From NCBI GenBank assembly GCA_944325315.1, contig CALVAA010000020.1, forward strand, positions 1-33,977: DNA of 33,977 bases, given 5' to 3'. Shown one piece after another: positions 221 through 20,211 of the stretch. The stretch's first letter is position 1; every line of letters starts with the position of its first letter. The notes beneath the pieces are model-generated. The model was not told where the DNA came from, did no database searches, and was given only the letters and a program-made list of their open reading frames with translations. Both the position numbers and the translations under genes were made by a program. This DNA comes from Candidatus Gastranaerophilales bacterium (lineage in GTDB: Bacteria > Cyanobacteriota > Vampirovibrionia > Gastranaerophilales > Gastranaerophilaceae).

Positions 221-964
221 ATGAAAATAATTGGGATAATTCCTGCAAGGTATAAATCAAGCAGGTTTGAAGGTAAACCATTAGCTGACATTTTGGGTAA
301 GCCAATGATTTGGTGGGTGTATAACAGTGCTATAAAAGCCAAAGGCTTAGATGAGGTTTATGTTGCTTGTGATGATACACGAATTGAAACTGCATGTATT
401 GAAAACAATATTAAAGTAATAATGACTTCTACAAGTCATAAAACAGGTACAGATAGAATCGGTGAAGTTGCAAGAAAAATTGAAGCTGATTTATATATAA
501 ATATACAAGGCGATGAGCCTATGATTGAGCCACATACAATAGAAAAAGCTATTGAACCTTTTTTAAAAAATAAGAATCTGCAAGTTTCAAATCTTATGAC
601 AAAAATTAAAGACCCTGTTGAAGTTGTAAATTTTACTGTTCCAAAAGTTATTGTAAATAAAGACAATATTGGAATTTATCTTACAAGAAGTGCAGCTCCA
701 TACCCCAAAGCAAGTATTGACTATCATTACTATAAGCAAGTTTGTGTTTACGGCTTTACAAAAGAAGCGCTTGATTTTTATTGTAACAGCCCCAGAGGAA
801 GAGTTGAACAAATTGAAGACATCGAAATTTTAAGATTTATTGAAGCAGGCTATAAAGTTCAATTTATTGAAGTAGAATCTGATACCGTTGCCGTTGACAC
901 AAAAAAAGATCTTGAAAAAGTAAGAATGTTATTAAAGCAAAATAGAGGCGGATGTGAGTATTAA
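221..964 (+). CDS. kdsB: KdsB-like CMP-ulosonic acid synthetase
   Basis: This is a 3-deoxy-manno-octulosonate cytidylyltransferase family protein, which uses CTP to activate a 2-keto-3-deoxy sugar acid as its CMP form for envelope glycans. ATG 221 is chosen over an upstream TTG because GGGAG at 209-213 sits 7 nt before it and the protein then starts directly at the nucleotide-binding IIPARYKSSR. It has 247 residues, normal for the family. The CTP loop (residues 5-20), QGDEP (96-100, metal Asp98) and VAVDT (metal Asp226) are intact. Arg156 matches the E. coli sugar-binding Arg157. The positions matching E. coli His181 and Gln211 are Gln173 and Ile203, so the substrate may not be Kdo. The gene overlaps the next by 11 nt. 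Family assignment is firm; substrate is open. Confidence 0.9.
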   Translation: MKIIGIIPARYKSSRFEGKPLADILGKPMIWWVYNSAIKAKGLDEVYVACDDTRIETACIENNIKVIMTSTSHKTGTDRIGEVARKIEADLYINIQGDEPMIEPHTIEKAIEPFLKNKNLQVSNLMTKIKDPVEVVNFTVPKVIVNKDNIGIYLTRSAAPYPKASIDYHYYKQVCVYGFTKEALDFYCNSPRGRVEQIEDIEILRFIEAGYKVQFIEVESDTVAVDTKKDLEKVRMLLKQNRGGCEY

Positions 965-2504
965 AATTTTAGACTGTACATTAAGAGATGGCGGGTATGT
1001 AAACAATTGGGATTTTAAAGAAAAAAATATAAAATTTATTCTTAAAAACTTAACTGATTCTAATGTTGATTATATAGAATGCGGTTTTTTAAAGCAAAAT
1101 GATTACAATATAGATAAAACATTTTTTCAAAATTTTAGCCAATTAGAAAGCATGCTTCCCCAAAGACAGAGTTCAATTTACACTCTTATGATTAATTTTG
1201 GTGAAATCCCAATAGATTCAATTCCAAAGTGCAATACAAAAGTTAATCTTAGAGTAGTATTTAAAAAAGAAAAGCGCTTTGAAGCAATTGAATACTGCAA
1301 ACAACTTGTCAGCAAAGGTTATAAAGTTTTTATCAATCCGATGAATACAAGTACTTATTCAAGCGGTGAATTGCTTGAAATTATAGAGCTTGTAAACAAA
1401 ATAAAACCAATAGGCTTTACAATCGTTGATACAACAGGAGCGATGAACAAAAAAGATATTATAGCTATGTATTATCTTATTGAAAATAATTTAGATAAAG
1501 ATACTGCTCTTTGTTTTCATTCACACAATAACCTCCAACTTTCTTTTTCAAATGCTCAAGTTTTAATGGAACAAAACACTAAAAGAGAACTTATTATTGA
1601 TTCAAGCGTTTTTGGGATGGGCAGAGGTGCGGGTAATTTATGCAGCGAATTACTAATAAAATATATTAATGATAACTACGACGGCAATTATGATATTATC
1701 CCAATATTGAAAATTATAGACGAGCAAATAAATAAAATTTTTGCAATATCTCCCTGGGGCTATTCCGTACCTTATTATATGGCTGCTATTAATAATTGCC
1801 ATCCGAATTATGCAAAGTTTTTAATAGAAAAACAAACTGTTCCGGTTGAACTTATAAACAAAATCTTGAATAATATCCCATACAAAAATCGAGGAATTTA
1901 TAGCGAAGATTTAATTTTGGAATTGTATAGAAAAACAATAGAACATTTTATTGATGATGGCAAAGATTTAAATAAACTTTCAAAACTTTTATCAAATAAG
2001 CCGGTTTTGCTGATTGCTTCAGGTAAAAGCATAGTTCAGGAAGAAAGAAATATAAATAATTTTATCAAAAAAAACAATCCTTTTATAATTTCTCTAAATT
2101 TTATTCCAAAAAAGTATAATCCAAATTTGGTGTTTGTAACAAACATTAAAAGGTATAATAATTTAGATAAAACAAATATTCCTTTAGCTTTAACATCAAA
2201 CATCAAAGCTTTTTCCGATTACAAACTAAATTATTCATCATATGTTGAAGACAATGAATTCAGTGATAACGTAGCTTTGATTGCGCTAAGAGTTTTATTA
2301 AATGCTGGAGTTAAAGAGGTTTCAATAGCAGGCTTTGACGGTTATAACAAAGATGCAAACGATAATTATTCAGAAAGTGAACTTACAAATATTGCATTTA
2401 TACAAAACAGTGTCGTTAAAAATCAACAGATTAAATTACAATTGTCAAAAATAATAAAGCATATTAAAATAAATTTTATCACTAAATCGTATTATGAAAT
2501 ATAG
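954..2504 (+). CDS. HMGL/DmpG-type aldolase fused to a MptE/DUF115-like domain
   Basis: The protein has 516 residues and a GTG start inside the end of the kdsB-like gene. Residues 1 to about 270 form a DRE-TIM metallolyase barrel. TLRDGG (9-14) carries the metal Asp and catalytic Arg, HSH (189-191) supplies metal histidines, and GMGRGAGN (221-228) resembles 4-hydroxy-2-oxoacid aldolases. Residues from about 348 form a second Rossmann-like domain starting VLLIASGKSI and ending near VSIAGFDGY. This resembles the MptE/DUF115 or sialyltransferase-like fold, but the match is weak. The barrel family condenses or cleaves pyruvate or acyl donors. Here it may build the 2-keto acid that the preceding enzyme activates, which is inference from the overlap. 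The exact reaction is unknown. Confidence 0.75.
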   Translation: MSIKILDCTLRDGGYVNNWDFKEKNIKFILKNLTDSNVDYIECGFLKQNDYNIDKTFFQNFSQLESMLPQRQSSIYTLMINFGEIPIDSIPKCNTKVNLRVVFKKEKRFEAIEYCKQLVSKGYKVFINPMNTSTYSSGELLEIIELVNKIKPIGFTIVDTTGAMNKKDIIAMYYLIENNLDKDTALCFHSHNNLQLSFSNAQVLMEQNTKRELIIDSSVFGMGRGAGNLCSELLIKYINDNYDGNYDIIPILKIIDEQINKIFAISPWGYSVPYYMAAINNCHPNYAKFLIEKQTVPVELINKILNNIPYKNRGIYSEDLILELYRKTIEHFIDDGKDLNKLSKLLSNKPVLLIASGKSIVQEERNINNFIKKNNPFIISLNFIPKKYNPNLVFVTNIKRYNNLDKTNIPLALTSNIKAFSDYKLNYSSYVEDNEFSDNVALIALRVLLNAGVKEVSIAGFDGYNKDANDNYSESELTNIAFIQNSVVKNQQIKLQLSKIIKHIKINFITKSYYEI

Positions 2505-2514
2505 GGTAAATTAT

Positions 2515-3969
2515 ATGAAAGAAAAATATTTTAAATTTTTAAACTCACCTTTTTTATTAGCTTTGTGCTGTGCTCTTTTTACTTTTTTCGGCAAATGCTT
2601 TTTAGATTTTGCATGCATTAGCGCAGTTTCAAGCATATTTCTTTCGATTCTTACTACATTAGAATATAGAGAAAAAATTAACATACGCTTTATGGTAAAA
2701 TATTCTCTATTTTTCTTTTTGCTTTTTATATTAAGAGTTATAGTTTTAATTTGTTTTAAATATGACCCAATTAACCCATTTGTATACGTTACACTTGCTT
2801 TTAAGCTCCCCGCTATATTGAGCTTATGTGTTTTAGGGATTCCTTTTTCTTTTGTTTTCTTTTTTATTGCTTCAAAACTTACAATATTGTTTTTAAATAA
2901 AACTTCTTTTAAAAATAATATAAAAACTAATATCATACTTTTAGTACTGCTTATATTACTTATTGTTGGCTATTCGTTAAAAAACATCAATATTAACTTT
3001 TTGTTTGACAAAAGTATTAATTTATCAAATTTTAAAGAAAAAGTTTTTGATAAATTAGTTCCCAAGGTGAATACTTGGTCATATAGGGACCTTCCTTTTG
3101 GAGAACAAATTGAATATAAGAAAAAAATGTATTTATCTTATTATATTTATTTATACTTAATAAATAAATATCCAAATCAAATTACAAAAGACACTGTTAT
3201 AAGTTGTGATATGCTGTTTGACAATATGGAAACGATTAATCGTAAAAAATATTATAATCTATTTATCAAACAAAAAAATATTTTGAATAGAATTAAAAAT
3301 CCAAATCTAAATACATATCTTGCTTTAAGTGAAATTTACAAATTAACGCACTACTATAACTGTAGTTCTATAGAAGTTGATTTATCTAAAGAGTGTTTAG
3401 AGCATCAAAGAGAAGAATTAGAAATAAATAAAAATGTATGTAAATTAGGCGGAAGCTGTATGCTTGGAGACAGAGTGAGCGTAAGCAACTATATAGTTTT
3501 CAGCTCGGTTAATAATAAAAATGTCGTAATTATAAAAGAAGTAGAAAAAAAATATGATGATATAATTAGCTTTTTAGAAAGTCTGGATACTAATGATAAA
3601 AGAGTAGCATTGGGATTAAAAACATATCTGATTGGTAAATATTATACTATATTTAATTTAAATATGTCGGATAAAAAAGTAAAAGAATACTATAAAAATA
3701 ATAAAGAACAAATAGATAAAAACATTGAAAAAGCGCTTGAATTAAATGAAAAATTTAAATTAAATGAAGATGGAATAAGAGATGGGCGTCTTGTTTCTAA
3801 AAGTGATGATTATTATGATATTGCATATATTTATAAACATGCAGGCGATAAAGAAAAATATGAACACTTTAATAAACTATATAATACTTACAAAAAAGTT
3901 TACAAGCCTGCAAAAAGCCCGGCGTATGTACCTCCAAAGCATTTACTTAATTCTGTGAATAAGAGTTAA
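2515..3969 (+). CDS. Membrane protein of unknown function, four N-terminal helices
   Basis: I do not recognise this gene. ATG 2515 is preferred (AGGGT at 2503-2507, spacing about 7) over the in-frame ATG 2494, giving 484 residues. The first about 160 residues hold four hydrophobic segments, for example ALCCALFTFFG, FFFLLFILRVIVLICF, SFVFFFIASKL and ILLVLLILLIVGY. The remaining about 320 residues are Lys/Asn/Tyr-rich and soluble, with alpha-helical stretches that could be solenoid repeats near the C-terminus. It follows the aldolase fusion with almost no gap and is probably co-transcribed. That makes an envelope role plausible but unproven. Its 3' end overlaps the convergent gene by 27 nt. Confidence 0.7.
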   Translation: MKEKYFKFLNSPFLLALCCALFTFFGKCFLDFACISAVSSIFLSILTTLEYREKINIRFMVKYSLFFFLLFILRVIVLICFKYDPINPFVYVTLAFKLPAILSLCVLGIPFSFVFFFIASKLTILFLNKTSFKNNIKTNIILLVLLILLIVGYSLKNININFLFDKSINLSNFKEKVFDKLVPKVNTWSYRDLPFGEQIEYKKKMYLSYYIYLYLINKYPNQITKDTVISCDMLFDNMETINRKKYYNLFIKQKNILNRIKNPNLNTYLALSEIYKLTHYYNCSSIEVDLSKECLEHQREELEINKNVCKLGGSCMLGDRVSVSNYIVFSSVNNKNVVIIKEVEKKYDDIISFLESLDTNDKRVALGLKTYLIGKYYTIFNLNMSDKKVKEYYKNNKEQIDKNIEKALELNEKFKLNEDGIRDGRLVSKSDDYYDIAYIYKHAGDKEKYEHFNKLYNTYKKVYKPAKSPAYVPPKHLLNSVNKS

Positions 3970-9108: not shown

Positions 9109-12100
9109 ATGTTAATTGAAAAAGAAATTAAAACAGAATTTGAGCCAAACAAAGAACAAAAAGAATGCATTGAATTTAAAACAGGTATAACTCTTGCACT
9201 CGCTGGTCCCGGTACCGGAAAAACATTCTGTATTACAAAAAGGATTGAATCTTTAATTAGAAATAATGTTCAACCTGATAGAATCCTTTGTCTTACATTT
9301 ACTGAAGTTGCGGCACTTGAAATGAAAAAAAGGCTTTCAAAAACACTCGAAAAAAAAGCTGCAACGGATGTTAATGTTTATACTTATCATGGCTTGTGTA
9401 TGGACATTATTCAATCGAACGAGTTTGAATTTTCTTTTAAAGATGTAAAGATAATCAATGATATAACAAGTTATTATTTCATAAAGGAATGTATAGATGA
9501 GATTGAACCGACAGAATACAGAGATTCAAACAACGATCCTTATAGCAAGATTCCTGTTTTATTGGAAGAAATTTCTCAAATAAAGAAGAATATGCTAACA
9601 AAAGAAAAGTATTTTTATAATATTAAAAACCATCCCGAGTGGGAAAGAATGCTCAAAGAAAAAATAAGAGAAAGAGATGAAAAACTAAATTCAGGAAAAA
9701 AAGTAACAAAGCAGCTTGAATCCACAATAAAAAAACTTGATGAAAAAATAAGAAAAGCAAAAGAATTGTGGCGGTTCTATGAACTTTATAATTCTAAAAT
9801 GAAAAAAAATAATTTTGTCGATTTTAACGATATGATTTCACTTGTAGTGCAAAAATTTGAAGAAAACCCGTCTTTTTTAGAACAAATTGCATCTAAGTAT
9901 GACCAGATTTTAATCGATGAATATCAAGATACAAGCAGACTTCAAAACAAGATTATTTTCTTTTTGATTGACGGTATGAAAAGAAAAAATGTTTTTTTAG
10001 TTGGTGATGATAATCAGACAATTTTTTCTTTTCAGGGAGCTAATATAAATAATTTGGCCAATTTTATTAAAAAGTATCAAAATGAGCTCGGTTTTAAAGT
10101 AGTCTGTTTAAAAGAAAATATGCGCTCTACGCAAAGTATTTTAGATTTTAGCTATGCTGTATCAAATAATGATCCGTTGAGGTTGGAAGGAATAAACGAA
10201 TTTAAAAAGTTTAATATAGATAAAAAGCTAATTTCTAAAAACACTCTTTTGAAAGACAAAGATTCTCCGGTTAAATATATTCAATATTGTTCAAGCGAAA
10301 GAGAACAAAATGCTATAGTAGAAAAAATTGAAAATATTATAAATTCACCTTTTTGTCCTTTGGATGAGCGCAGTGAAAAAAAATTATCAGAAATTGCAAT
10401 TTTATTAAAGACGAATAAAGAAATTGATAATTATGCAATGAAATTAAAAGCAAAAAATATCCCCTACGAATTAAAAGAAGGAAAATCGATATTTAATGTT
10501 AAATCGTCCTGTGTTACTTATTCATATTTAAAATTTCTTCTAAATGAAAATATATATGAAAATGAAATATTAAAATTGTTTTTGTTTGAGCCTTTTAAAA
10601 TTCATAGTCTTGATTATGAAAAAATTTGGATAGAAAGGCATAAAAATAACCAAACTTTAATAAGTGAAGATATTAAAAAATTGATTGCGGAGGGTAAATT
10701 AAAAGAACCCGAAAAGTTAAAAAATTTTCTGGACAGTTACTTTGAGCTTAAAGAAATTGTATCATCAGAAGATATAAGAACAGTTGTATTAACAGCAATG
10801 GAAAAAAGCGGAATTTACAGATATTTTATAAATTGTCCGGTTAATAAATTTGAAAATGTACAAGGATTAAAAAAACTGACAGAAATAACAGAAGAATTTT
10901 ACACATCATCTTTTCAGAATTCTTTAGCTGACTTTATAGATTATCTTGACTTATCAAGACAAAACGATTTTGAAATTAAAACGGATAAACCCCAAAAAAC
11001 GCTGAATGCTGTACAATTGAGCACTTATCACAGTTCTAAAGGAAGAGAATTTGAATATGTCTTTATGCCAAATTTAAGAAAAAGACTCTGGGAATCTAAT
11101 TCAAATCCTGCAACTGCGAGCCAAAATATTCCATTGGATGAAGTTATAGATGAAAATGAGAAAAAATTGTACAAATACTCAAACGAACTAAAACTTATGT
11201 ATGTGGGTTTAACAAGAGCAAAACATTCTTTATATTTATCTTGTGCCGAAAATGTTTCTTTGGGTCTCAGTGATATTATAAGCGATAAACTTGATATGAC
11301 GGATAGTTTTTTTGAGCAGGACAGTTTAGAATTACTTGAAGAAGACACCAAAAAAGAACTTGAAGTTAAAAGTTACGATTATGATAGAGAATTTTTTGAA
11401 TTTTTAAATTCAATTATTGAAAATATAATTTATTCTCCAAGTGCAATCAACAACTACATTGCTTGTCCTAAAAAATATTTATATCAAAATATTTTAAAAT
11501 TAGATTCATTATCCGACCCTAAAGACCATGCAAACTATGGTTCAAGCATGCATTATTGTCTCGAGAGGGCTTTTTCTTTTGCAAAAAAAGAAAAAAACTA
11601 TCCCGAAAAGGAAAAATTTTATGAATGGTTTAAAGAAAAATTTGATACATTAGCTATATCAGATAAAAGCATAAGAAAAGTTATGGAACAAAGAGCAAAA
11701 GAAAACCTTGAAACTTTTTATACATATTTTATCCAAACGCCCGTAAATCGACTGTATGCCTGTGAGTATAAGCTTGATAATACTAATATTGATGGCTATA
11801 ATACAACCGGCTTTATAGACAGAATTGAATTAAACGAAGATAACACTTATACGATTTGTGATTATAAGACAGGCAAAAAAGATAAGAAAAATTTCAAAAT
11901 AAACGGCTTGAATCAAGATTACCTGATGCAGCTTTATATATACAAAATGCTTTTCGAGAAGAAAAATCCCGATAAAAAAGTTACAAAATTGAAAATAATT
12001 TTGCCTGACAGTGCGTTTGACAGTTTTGAAATTGAAATTCTTGAAAGCGCTGAAGTCTTTTTTAAAGATTTATTTGTTAAGGCTTGTTTAGACATATCTA

Positions 12101-13136: not shown

Positions 13137-13302
13137 CAAAAAAAGAATACCTTATTGCCCGTTATTATCAGCAGGTGCACCTGACTACAGGGTTTGTCTT
13201 CAGGAAAATTGCGCATGGTGGCAAGCAAGTACTAAAACATGTATAGCATCTGTTATATCACACAATGCAATTTTGGATATTAAACAAAAACAAGGAAAAT
13301 AA
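13123..13302 (+). CDS. 59-residue cysteine protein coupled to nfnA
   Basis: This short gene starts at ATG 13123 inside the end of nfnA, with AGGAG at 13112-13116 and 6-nt spacing. It ends 1 nt before the leuC start. The product has four cysteines, C12-x12-C25-x4-C30-x9-C40, including CLQENCAWW. This arrangement could bind zinc or an iron-sulfur cluster. It has no signal peptide or membrane segment. I do not recognise a named family. Tight coupling to an NfnA-like electron-transfer protein on one side and an iron-sulfur dehydratase on the other suggests an electron carrier or assembly partner, which is inference. Confidence 0.8.
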   Translation: MAEINKKRIPYCPLLSAGAPDYRVCLQENCAWWQASTKTCIASVISHNAILDIKQKQGK

Positions 13303-13303
13303 A

Positions 13304-14581
13304 ATGCCTGAAATTAAGCCAATGACAATTACGGAAAAAATCTTTGCAAAACATTCAAATAAATCTTTTGTTGAACCCGGAGATTTGATTGAAGCAAAGG
13401 TTGATATTGTTTTAGCTAACGATATTACCGGTCCGATTGCAATTCAAGAGTTTGAAAAAACAGGATGTAAAAAGGTTTTTGATAAATCAAGAGTTATTTT
13501 AGTGCCTGATCATTTTACTCCAAACAAGGATATAAAATCTGCCGTTCAGGCTAAAATTTTAAGAGATTTTACAAAAAAAGAGGATTTGGATTTTAAATTT
13601 GATGTAGGTACAATGGGGATAGAACATGCACTATTGCCTGAAAAAGGAATTGTCACATCGGGAGATTTAATAATAGGTGCTGATTCTCATACTTGCACTT
13701 ACGGTGCTTTGGGTGCTTTTTCAACCGGCGTTGGCTCAACTGATCTTGGCTGTGCTATGGCATCGGGGTCTACTTGGTTTAAAGTACCCGGTAGTATAAA
13801 AGTGATTTTTAACGGCAAATTAAACAAATATACAACAGCAAAAGACCTTATCCTTTATTTGATTGGTGATATCGGGGTGGATGGTGCTTTGTATAAGGCA
13901 ATAGAATTTTCAGGAAGTGCAATATCTTCTCTTTCGATGGATGGAAGATTTACAATTTGCAATATGGCAATTGAAGCCGGGGCTAAAAACGGCATAATTG
14001 AGCCTGACGATACCACAATAGAATATTTAAAAAACCGCTCAATCAGAGAGCCTCTATATTTAAAAAGCGATAGCAGTGCAAATTATGAAAGAATTATTGA
14101 ATATGATGCATCTAAAATTGAACCCCAGGTTGCTTATCCGCATTTACCTGAAAACACTCATTCAATAACAGAAGCCATTAAAGACAATATTAAAATCGAC
14201 CAAGTTGTAATCGGAAGTTGTACAAACGGCAGATTGGAAGATATGAAAATGGCGGCTGAAATTTTAAAAGGAAAAAAAGTTCATCCAAACGTAAGAGTAA
14301 TTGTTTTTCCTGCAACACAAGATATAATTTTAAAATCAATTGAGCTTGGATATTACCAAACACTTATTGAAGCTAATGTTGCAATTTCTACACCTACATG
14401 TGGGCCTTGCTTGGGTGGTCATTGCGGAATTTTAGCAAAAGATGAAGTTTGCATTTCAACAACAAACAGGAATTTTGTTGGCAGAATGGGTGATATTGAT
14501 TCTAAAATTTATCTTGCAAGTCCTTATATTGCAGCTGCCAGTGCTGTTATGGGCAGAATAGCAGGCCCTTGGGAGTTGTAA
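13304..14581 (+). CDS. leuC: 3-isopropylmalate dehydratase large subunit
   Basis: The protein has 425 residues from ATG 13304, which follows AAGGAAAA; an upstream in-frame codon at 13265 lies inside the preceding gene. It belongs to the aconitase superfamily and isomerises 2- to 3-isopropylmalate for leucine, or acts similarly on citramalate. GADSHTCTYGALGAFSTG (125-142) and FTPNKDIKSA (71-80) are classic LeuC signatures. The 4Fe-4S ligands are Cys306 (GSCTNGR), Cys366 and Cys369 (TCGPC). The length fits the short archaeal/HacA-type LeuC. The small subunit gene leuD is not adjacent. It lies in an operon with nfnA upstream and the carboxypeptidase 2 nt downstream. Confidence 0.9.
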   Translation: MPEIKPMTITEKIFAKHSNKSFVEPGDLIEAKVDIVLANDITGPIAIQEFEKTGCKKVFDKSRVILVPDHFTPNKDIKSAVQAKILRDFTKKEDLDFKFDVGTMGIEHALLPEKGIVTSGDLIIGADSHTCTYGALGAFSTGVGSTDLGCAMASGSTWFKVPGSIKVIFNGKLNKYTTAKDLILYLIGDIGVDGALYKAIEFSGSAISSLSMDGRFTICNMAIEAGAKNGIIEPDDTTIEYLKNRSIREPLYLKSDSSANYERIIEYDASKIEPQVAYPHLPENTHSITEAIKDNIKIDQVVIGSCTNGRLEDMKMAAEILKGKKVHPNVRVIVFPATQDIILKSIELGYYQTLIEANVAISTPTCGPCLGGHCGILAKDEVCISTTNRNFVGRMGDIDSKIYLASPYIAAASAVMGRIAGPWEL

Positions 14582-18849: not shown

Positions 18850-18942
18850 TGATTATAAAACTCCTAATTTATTGCTTTATTATCGTAAAAAAGGCTCTTT
18901 TTGTTATCATATAATTAAACGAAATATTATTTTTGTTTGGGT

Positions 18943-18948
18943 TATAAT
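18943..18948 (+). promoter_or_regulatory. -10 box for the leuC paralogue
   Basis: TATAAT occurs 30 nt before the chosen start of the second LeuC-type gene. No convincing -35 box is visible. It lies in the divergent gap with motA. Confidence 0.4.
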
Positions 18949-18978
18949 AATCTTGTCAACTTTATGAGGAATAGTTTT

Positions 18979-20211
18979 ATGGGTTTAACTTTAGCGCAAA
19001 AGATTTTGTCATCTCATTCAGGGCATACAGTTTCTGTTAATGAGCTTGCAATAGTTGATGTTGATGTCTGCGCAACACAAGACGGTACAGGGCCTTTAGC
19101 TATAAAGGAATTTAAAAAATTAAACAAAAAATTAAAAAACCCAAAAAGAACCATTCTTTTTATTGACCATGCTGCTCCTTCGCCAAGAAAGGAGTTGTCT
19201 AATGCACATAATACCATAAGGGAATTTGCAAAAGAATACGGCGCAGTGCTGTCAGATATCGGTTCAGGTGTTTGTCACCAAAGATTGGTTGAAAGTTTTA
19301 TTAATCCCGGTGAAGTACTGGTAGGTGCTGATTCTCACACATGTACATCAGGTGCTTTGGGTGCTTTTGCAACAGGAATGGGTTCAACAGATATAGCGGT
19401 TGCTATGGCTTTTGGCAAAACCTGGTTTAAGATTCCTGCTTCAATTAAAATTGAAGTAAACGGAAAATTTAATCAAAATGTTTCGTCTAAAGATTTAATG
19501 TTATATTTAATAGGTCTTATAGGTGCAGACGGTGCTACTTATAAAGCTTTAGAATTTTTTGGTGAAACTATTAAAAATATGTCAATGTCTGAAAGATTTA
19601 CCCTTGCAAATATGGCAGTTGAAGCAGGTGCTAAGGCAGGATTATTTGAAACTGATGAAAAAACAAAAGAATATTTAACTTTAAAAGGAAGGCCGGACAA
19701 GTTCAAAGAAATTAAAGCTGATATTGATTGTGAATATGAAAAAATTATAAAAATTGACGCTTCTGCAGTCAAACGTATGGTTTCTTGCCCTCATACCGTT
19801 GATAATACCAAGGAAGTAAATGAACTTAATAATGTCAAGGTTAATCAGGTTTTTATCGGGACTTGTACAAACGGAAGAATAGAAGATTTAAGAATTGCTG
19901 CAGATGTATTAAAAAACAACAAAGTTAATCCCGATGTACGCTTAATTATTGCTCCGGCAAGCAAAGATGTTTATCTTCAAGCGTCACAAGAAGGTCTTCT
20001 TGATATATTTTTGCAAGCAGGTGCTAATCTTATCCCTTCCGGCTGCGGCCCTTGTGTTGGTGTCCATGGCGGAATTTTAGGTGACGGGGAAGTTTGTCTT
20101 GCAACACAAAACAGAAACTTCCAAGGAAGAATGGGGAATACAAACGGTTTAATATATCTGTCAAGCCCATACACTGCGGCTAAATCTGCCATAGAGGGGT
20201 ATATTTGCTAG
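18979..20211 (+). CDS. LeuC/homoaconitase-type dehydratase large subunit, paralogue
   Basis: The protein has 410 residues from ATG 18979, which has GAGGA at 18966-18970; in-frame codons further up lack a ribosome site. It is of the same family as the gene at 13304 but clearly distinct: FIDHAAPSPRKELSNAH replaces the FTPNKDIKSA signature and GSGVCHQRLVE replaces GIEHALLPE. The cluster ligands are Cys296, Cys356 and Cys359 (SGCGPC). GADSHTCTSGALGAFATG is intact. It could be a second isopropylmalate/citramalate isomerase subunit or a homoaconitase-like enzyme; specificity is set largely by the small subunit, which is absent here. It is monocistronic, and its stop overlaps the convergent gene by 4 nt. 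Confidence 0.82.
   Translation: MGLTLAQKILSSHSGHTVSVNELAIVDVDVCATQDGTGPLAIKEFKKLNKKLKNPKRTILFIDHAAPSPRKELSNAHNTIREFAKEYGAVLSDIGSGVCHQRLVESFINPGEVLVGADSHTCTSGALGAFATGMGSTDIAVAMAFGKTWFKIPASIKIEVNGKFNQNVSSKDLMLYLIGLIGADGATYKALEFFGETIKNMSMSERFTLANMAVEAGAKAGLFETDEKTKEYLTLKGRPDKFKEIKADIDCEYEKIIKIDASAVKRMVSCPHTVDNTKEVNELNNVKVNQVFIGTCTNGRIEDLRIAADVLKNNKVNPDVRLIIAPASKDVYLQASQEGLLDIFLQAGANLIPSGCGPCVGVHGGILGDGEVCLATQNRNFQGRMGNTNGLIYLSSPYTAAKSAIEGYIC

Follow-up and report, generated by a model that had tools for sequence, protein, structure and literature searches.

A KdsB-like synthetase and a fused DRE-TIM aldolase as a candidate kit for a CMP-activated ulosonic acid other than Kdo

The window analysed here, 33,977 nucleotides in length, represents one whole 34-kb contig of a 1.81 Mb genome, and the genes of interest lie at its very beginning on the forward strand. 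The first encodes a KdsB-like CMP-ulosonate synthetase of 247 amino acids (221–964; ATG at 221, stop ending at 964), preceded by a candidate ribosome-binding site, GGGAG, that we read at 209–213. It is followed by a gene for a protein of 516 amino acids (954–2504) that starts with GTG, has the sequence AGAGG five bases upstream of this start codon, and comprises a DRE-TIM (HMGL-like) aldolase and a domain with the predicted fold of sialyltransferases, MptE and Maf. The overlap of 11 nt between the two genes claimed in an earlier note on this DNA is borne out by the open reading frames, which share positions 954–964, and the corresponding junctions overlap or abut in many relatives as well. The possibility that the overlap merely reflects a chance reading frame was dropped, as the product is conserved across phyla. 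A further gene (2494–3969) overlaps the aldolase gene by another 11 nt and probably belongs to the operon as its third member. It encodes a membrane protein of 491 amino acids for which no relative was found in Pfam, NCBIfam or the PDB and which is absent from the related loci. The same layout is present in metagenome-assembled genomes (MAGs) of Candidatus Gastranaerophilales, with KdsB-like proteins of up to 85% identity, and the source organism very probably belongs to this order. Further downstream the window holds two aconitase-family genes (13265–14581 and 18937–20211), about 4 kb apart and separated by patatin, MotB-like and MotA-like genes.

With 297 bits against PRK13368 (cut-off 255) and 168 bits against the kdsB model TIGR00466 (cut-off 155), the first protein would be labelled a CMP-Kdo synthetase by automatic annotation. 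In an alignment to E. coli K-12 KdsB, residues R10, R15, K19, R79, D98 and D226 are retained and a serine, S14, replaces T14, so that the CTP and metal residues are indeed kept, as had been claimed; the CTP loop including S14, R79 and the metal aspartates D98 and D226 is that of a canonical KdsB, where functions have been described for the equivalent residues (PMC3149649). The C-terminal half of KdsB binds Kdo (PMC3149649), and here the canonical pair His181/Gln211 is missing: the alignment confirms Q173 in the position of H181 and I203 in that of Q211. Among 81 aldolase-adjacent KdsB-like proteins, positions 173 and 203 are Q/I in 27 cases, F/E in 14, Y/H in eight, H/T in seven, H/E in five and I/L in four, with other pairs being rarer, and not one of the 81 carries His/Gln. 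As Q/I recurs in a third of this set and the canonical pair never appears in it, the substitution is not a matter of chance. The two positions switch jointly, as pairs (Q/I, F/E, Y/H, H/T), and the Q/I type of the window is one of several chemotypes. From these exchanges we infer that the putative acid pocket of the enzyme is altered.

The earlier note had raised the question whether this might be the only kdsB in a genome with kdsA and kdtA. It is not, and its role as the housekeeping kdsB of the genome was discarded once a second copy had been found. This paralogue (C2:81113–81826, also read as L007:7105–7836) retains the His/Gln pair, is 35% identical to the protein of the window, and is followed by a gene whose product, by our reading of the sequence, looks like LptD, with housekeeping genes in the surroundings. 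Also encoded elsewhere in the genome are kdsA, recognized with 370 bits and above its cut-off, and waaA, identified by the WaaA N-terminal domain. The Kdo pathway thus looks complete without the gene of the window.

The aldolase makes up only the N-terminal part of the second protein (residues 1–310, 954–1883), which matches the HMGL-like family of Pfam. The assignment as a DRE-TIM aldolase of the 4-hydroxy-2-oxoacid (HOA) type held for the fold, whereas the relationship to HOA aldolases is a distant one. The RD, HxH and Asn motifs of the DRE-TIM metallolyases are present, and the residues of the metal and pyruvate motif, R11, D12, H189, H191 and N228, show no variation among 53 relatives. The predicted model is closest to 3dxi, the N-terminal domain of the uncharacterised Bacteroides protein BVU_2661, with a Z-score of 30.5, and superimposes on the HOA aldolase 1nvm with a Z-score of 27.8. 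Against the 4-hydroxy-2-oxovalerate aldolase model TIGR03217, however, the protein scores 66.5 bits, far below the cut-off of 286, and the catalytic histidine of the HOA motif RDGxH is replaced by a tyrosine, Tyr15, as in 47 of 53 relatives. Because of this exchange the direction and the chemistry of the reaction are uncertain. The same genome encodes two more, unfused aldolase paralogues (G000:C7:68102–69070 and C12:43518–44516; L049 and L050), the latter of which abuts the halves of a TPP-dependent enzyme. A more distant fusion of an aldolase with an MptE-like domain is found at L052:5920–11207 and L053:5937–10851 together with a TPP-dependent enzyme, a HAD phosphatase and an LdpA-like Fe-S protein, and this gene group is possibly another keto-acid pathway.

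The remainder of the chain, from about residue 314 to residue 516 (1893–2501), is a separate domain that was absent from the earlier note. Its structure is predicted with a pLDDT of 93.5. By sequence only sub-threshold matches to the PDB were obtained, and within the family MptE-like of Pfam is matched by eight of 51 members and CST-I by one. Structural comparison with VIA-align placed the model near MptE (8sd5, Z 11.7), the sialyltransferase CstII (1ro8, Z 11.4; 3.4 Å over 157 residues) and Maf (5mu5, Z 11.2), and the range from 8 to 11.7 further includes CstI, SteA and mammalian sialyltransferases, followed by thiamin pyrophosphokinases at about 7 and a fall to 4.7. Structures of GT42, GT29 and Maf occupy most of the top rows. 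The sialyltransferase match depends on VIA-align; Foldseek alone ranked SteA first, with an E-value of about 0.01. The domain has the Rossmann-like fold of GT42 and Maf, a fold that is also found in MptE and is therefore not specific. In CstII the catalytic histidine is His188; in the family alignment of the domain, no column has a histidine in more than eight of 51 rows. The predicted fold fits both a transferase and a pyrophosphokinase-like function and does not decide between them. We favour a transferase because the partner enzyme would make a CMP-sugar, yet such an activity is a guess, as the fold is common to pterin and thiamin pyrophosphokinases and a conserved histidine was not observed.

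The combination of the two genes is widespread. In a search of 383 genomes of the order we read the 18 loci with the closest accessory KdsB-like genes, and in 16 of them the fused aldolase adjoins the KdsB-like gene or is one gene off. When GTDB genomes were scanned with the Q/I group, 80 loci were retrieved, seven of which repeat genomes of the order; they were picked by similarity to the window, so that the counts are not population frequencies. They include members of the Bacillota and Bacteroidota, Akkermansia, Treponema, Saccharibacteria, Elusimicrobiota and two archaea, and in 66 of the 80 the aldolase lies within three genes of the KdsB-like gene, so that the pair recurs across phyla as the earlier note had proposed to ascertain. 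In the other 14 it was not seen nearby, some of these loci being at contig ends. The KdsB-like gene precedes the aldolase in 62 of 69 adjacent pairs, more than half of them with overlapping reading frames. Among 20 carriers tested, KdsA exceeded the cut-off in two and WaaA in three. Those without either include RefSeq isolates, among them Proteocatella, Bacillus, Paenibacillus and Clostridium as well as the archaeon Methanocorpusculum; some carriers are MAGs, where absence weighs less. Sub-threshold KdsA matches in carriers are, judging from length and score, probably DAHP synthases. In most carriers the product is thus unlikely to be the Kdo of lipopolysaccharide (LPS) made by KdsA.

We found no paper that names the pair of KdsB-like gene and aldolase. 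A kdsB reported from a Bacillus belongs to a Kdo island with kdsA (PMC4744853) and was for this reason rejected as an instance of the same system. A phage origin was likewise rejected: none of nine viral contigs from IMG/VR with KdsB-like proteins (L188–L196; 28–42% identity and one partial protein at 65%) has an aldolase beside it, and no full-length fusion was found in phage or plasmid records. Several sister genomes carry the fused aldolase beside a NeuA-type cytidylyltransferase of 219–227 amino acids that replaces or accompanies the KdsB type (L039:8436–9098, L042:8839–9510, L040:8262–8921 and 11389–12072), L040 with two tandem units. At two further loci (L106:5780–7174 and L107:162–1547) a NeuA-type and a KdsB-type cytidylyltransferase are fused into a single protein of 461–464 amino acids with no aldolase beside it.

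The two enzymes are linked by residues that change together. In a set of 68 loci with a clear pair, 23 of type Q/I and 45 of other types, the aldolase has M130 in all 23 Q/I loci and in one of the 45 others, an archaeal locus with a KdsB of type N/M. Position 81 is N, S or T in 23 of 23 against one of 45, and position 102 is A, V or I in 23 of 23 against five of 45. By mutual information these are the top three positions of the barrel, and they map to the C-terminal ends of the predicted strands 3 (residue 81), 5 (130) and 4 (102), where the active site of a TIM barrel opens; such strand ends account for four of the five top-ranked barrel positions (p = 0.0008). The aldolase of the window has N81, V102 and M130 at this mouth and thereby shares the signature of the Q/I proteins from Bacillota (39–46% identity), despite its overall proximity to the Y/H and F/E proteins of its own order (51–54%). 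On the aldolase tree the Q/I type requires six changes, and independent contrasts across well-supported branches agree in four of five cases and disagree in none; with n = 5 they cannot reach p < 0.05 and are suggestive. The correlation of KdsB and aldolase distances is modest (Mantel r 0.37), and co-inheritance over the whole tree is hence not our main argument. As pocket type and barrel-mouth residues co-vary, both enzymes probably handle one metabolite, which is probably not Kdo.

The genes next to the pair differ with the type. The third conserved gene encodes a HAD phosphatase and is present at 27 loci; it occurs in 23 of 45 non-Q/I loci, mostly directly after the aldolase, but in only two of 23 Q/I loci (p = 5e-4, Fisher's exact test ignoring relatedness). 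Conversely, a PfkB gene resembling KDG kinases comes next after the pair in five of 23 Q/I loci and in none of the 45 others (p = 0.003, likewise ignoring relatedness), a hint, to be taken as a lead, that the Q/I acid may be small, C6-like and similar to KDG. Six loci of the order, half of which are of type Q/I, have a member of a second HAD-like family 5' of the KdsB-like gene. No such gene precedes the KdsB-like gene in the window, where the contig begins only 220 bases upstream. Genes for glycosyltransferases, flippases and nucleotide sugars abound in these loci, many of which are also flanked by separate MptE-like proteins.

Taken together, we regard it as rather probable that the unit is a compact biosynthetic kit that makes a 3-deoxy-2-ulosonic acid distinct from Kdo and activates it with CMP for transfer by the fused domain. 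The aldolase would join pyruvate and an aldehyde to a 4-hydroxy-2-oxo sugar acid at a divalent metal, the HAD phosphatase, in the many relatives that have it next to the pair, would remove a phosphate, the KdsB-like enzyme with its altered acid pocket would convert the ulosonic acid to the CMP-sugar, and the C-terminal domain with its sialyltransferase or Maf fold might pass this on to a surface glycan or a protein. The central idea of the earlier note, that one enzyme could make a 2-keto sugar acid and the other activate it, gains support from the conservation of the pair, the co-varying pockets and the second, canonical kdsB.

Three other readings were weighed against this. That the gene encodes an ordinary second CMP-Kdo synthetase for a surface polysaccharide, comparable to the KpsU of capsules, with the aldolase serving another step, would agree with the presence of kdsA in this genome, where Kdo may be available, with the NCBI models that call the protein KdsB, and with its nearest solved relative 1gq9, annotated as CMP-Kdo synthetase and presumably the KpsU of E. 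coli K5. Yet Q/I relatives occur in isolates devoid of KdsA and WaaA, the His/Gln pair is found in no aldolase-adjacent member, and the aldolase is nearly always adjacent, with a barrel mouth that co-varies with the KdsB pocket, all of which makes this explanation improbable. HOA aldolases are catabolic, and with the KDG-kinase-like gene next in five Q/I loci one might also picture the aldolase working in the breaking direction, in salvage or degradation, with the pair keeping a free ulosonic acid in balance instead of producing it. The abundance of glycosyltransferases, flippases and nucleotide-sugar genes in these loci argues for synthesis instead, as do the HAD phosphatases at non-Q/I types, a feature of Kdo synthesis, and we give this idea very little credence.

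A further alternative concerns the C-terminal domain and leaves the CMP-ulosonate reading in place: the domain may be nucleotide-binding and pyrophosphokinase-like, with an MptE or thiamin pyrophosphokinase fold, and regulate or assist the aldolase, with a different glycosyltransferase encoded at the locus transferring the sugar. MptE ties for first place among the structural matches, thiamin pyrophosphokinases follow, and both the lack of a conserved histidine and the separate MptE-like proteins at many loci are in line with such a role. On the other hand, GT42, GT29 and Maf dominate the upper rows, the CST-I match of one member points the same way, and a CMP-sugar, the predicted product of the neighbouring enzyme, is the type of donor used by that fold. 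We consider this assignment rather unlikely.

Returning to the biosynthetic kit, we tentatively extend it to a widespread and so far undescribed route that does without PEP. Gram-positive bacteria, archaea and other organisms would use a pyruvate aldolase together with a KdsB paralogue and a fused domain of sialyltransferase fold to make and transfer a family of CMP-ulosonic acids that are neither Kdo nor sialic acids. The sugar type might then be read from KdsB positions 173 and 203 and aldolase positions 81, 102 and 130, the Q/I acid being short and six-carbon-like. If this is true, a testable function would be assigned to many genes annotated as CMP-Kdo synthetase in LPS-free organisms, the CMP-ulosonic acids used to decorate microbial surfaces would gain a new route and new members, and the two-domain protein would both make and transfer one sugar within a single chain. 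With a residue code leading from sequence to sugar type, such glycans could be read out of metagenomic data.

In comparison with known systems, the synthetase shares with the KdsB and KpsU CMP-Kdo synthetases (TIGR00466, PRK13368; 1gq9, 3k8d) the fold family, the CTP and metal residues and R156 (R157 in E. coli), but its equivalents of H181 and Q211 are replaced and co-vary in types, it has an aldolase as neighbour, and it often occurs in organisms without KdsA. The aldolase has the barrel fold, the metal ligands and the RDG and HxHNN motifs in common with HOA-like DRE-TIM aldolases (DmpG, AmnG, BphI; 3dxi), and differs from them in the tyrosine in place of the catalytic histidine, a score far under the HOA cut-off, the C-terminal fusion, and a partner that is a CMP-sugar synthetase rather than an aldehyde dehydrogenase. 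The C-terminal domain resembles GT42 sialyltransferases such as CstII and the Maf flagellin glycosyltransferases in its predicted fold and in the logic of a CMP-ulosonate donor; unlike these, it is fused to a sugar-acid aldolase, is weakly similar in sequence, and has no conserved histidine that we could see. The proposed sequence of a C3 condensation, a HAD phosphatase at many loci, CMP activation and transfer parallels the KdsA-KdsC-KdsB-WaaA and NeuB-NeuA pathways, from which it would differ in that the condensing enzyme is a pyruvate-type aldolase and not a PEP-dependent synthase.
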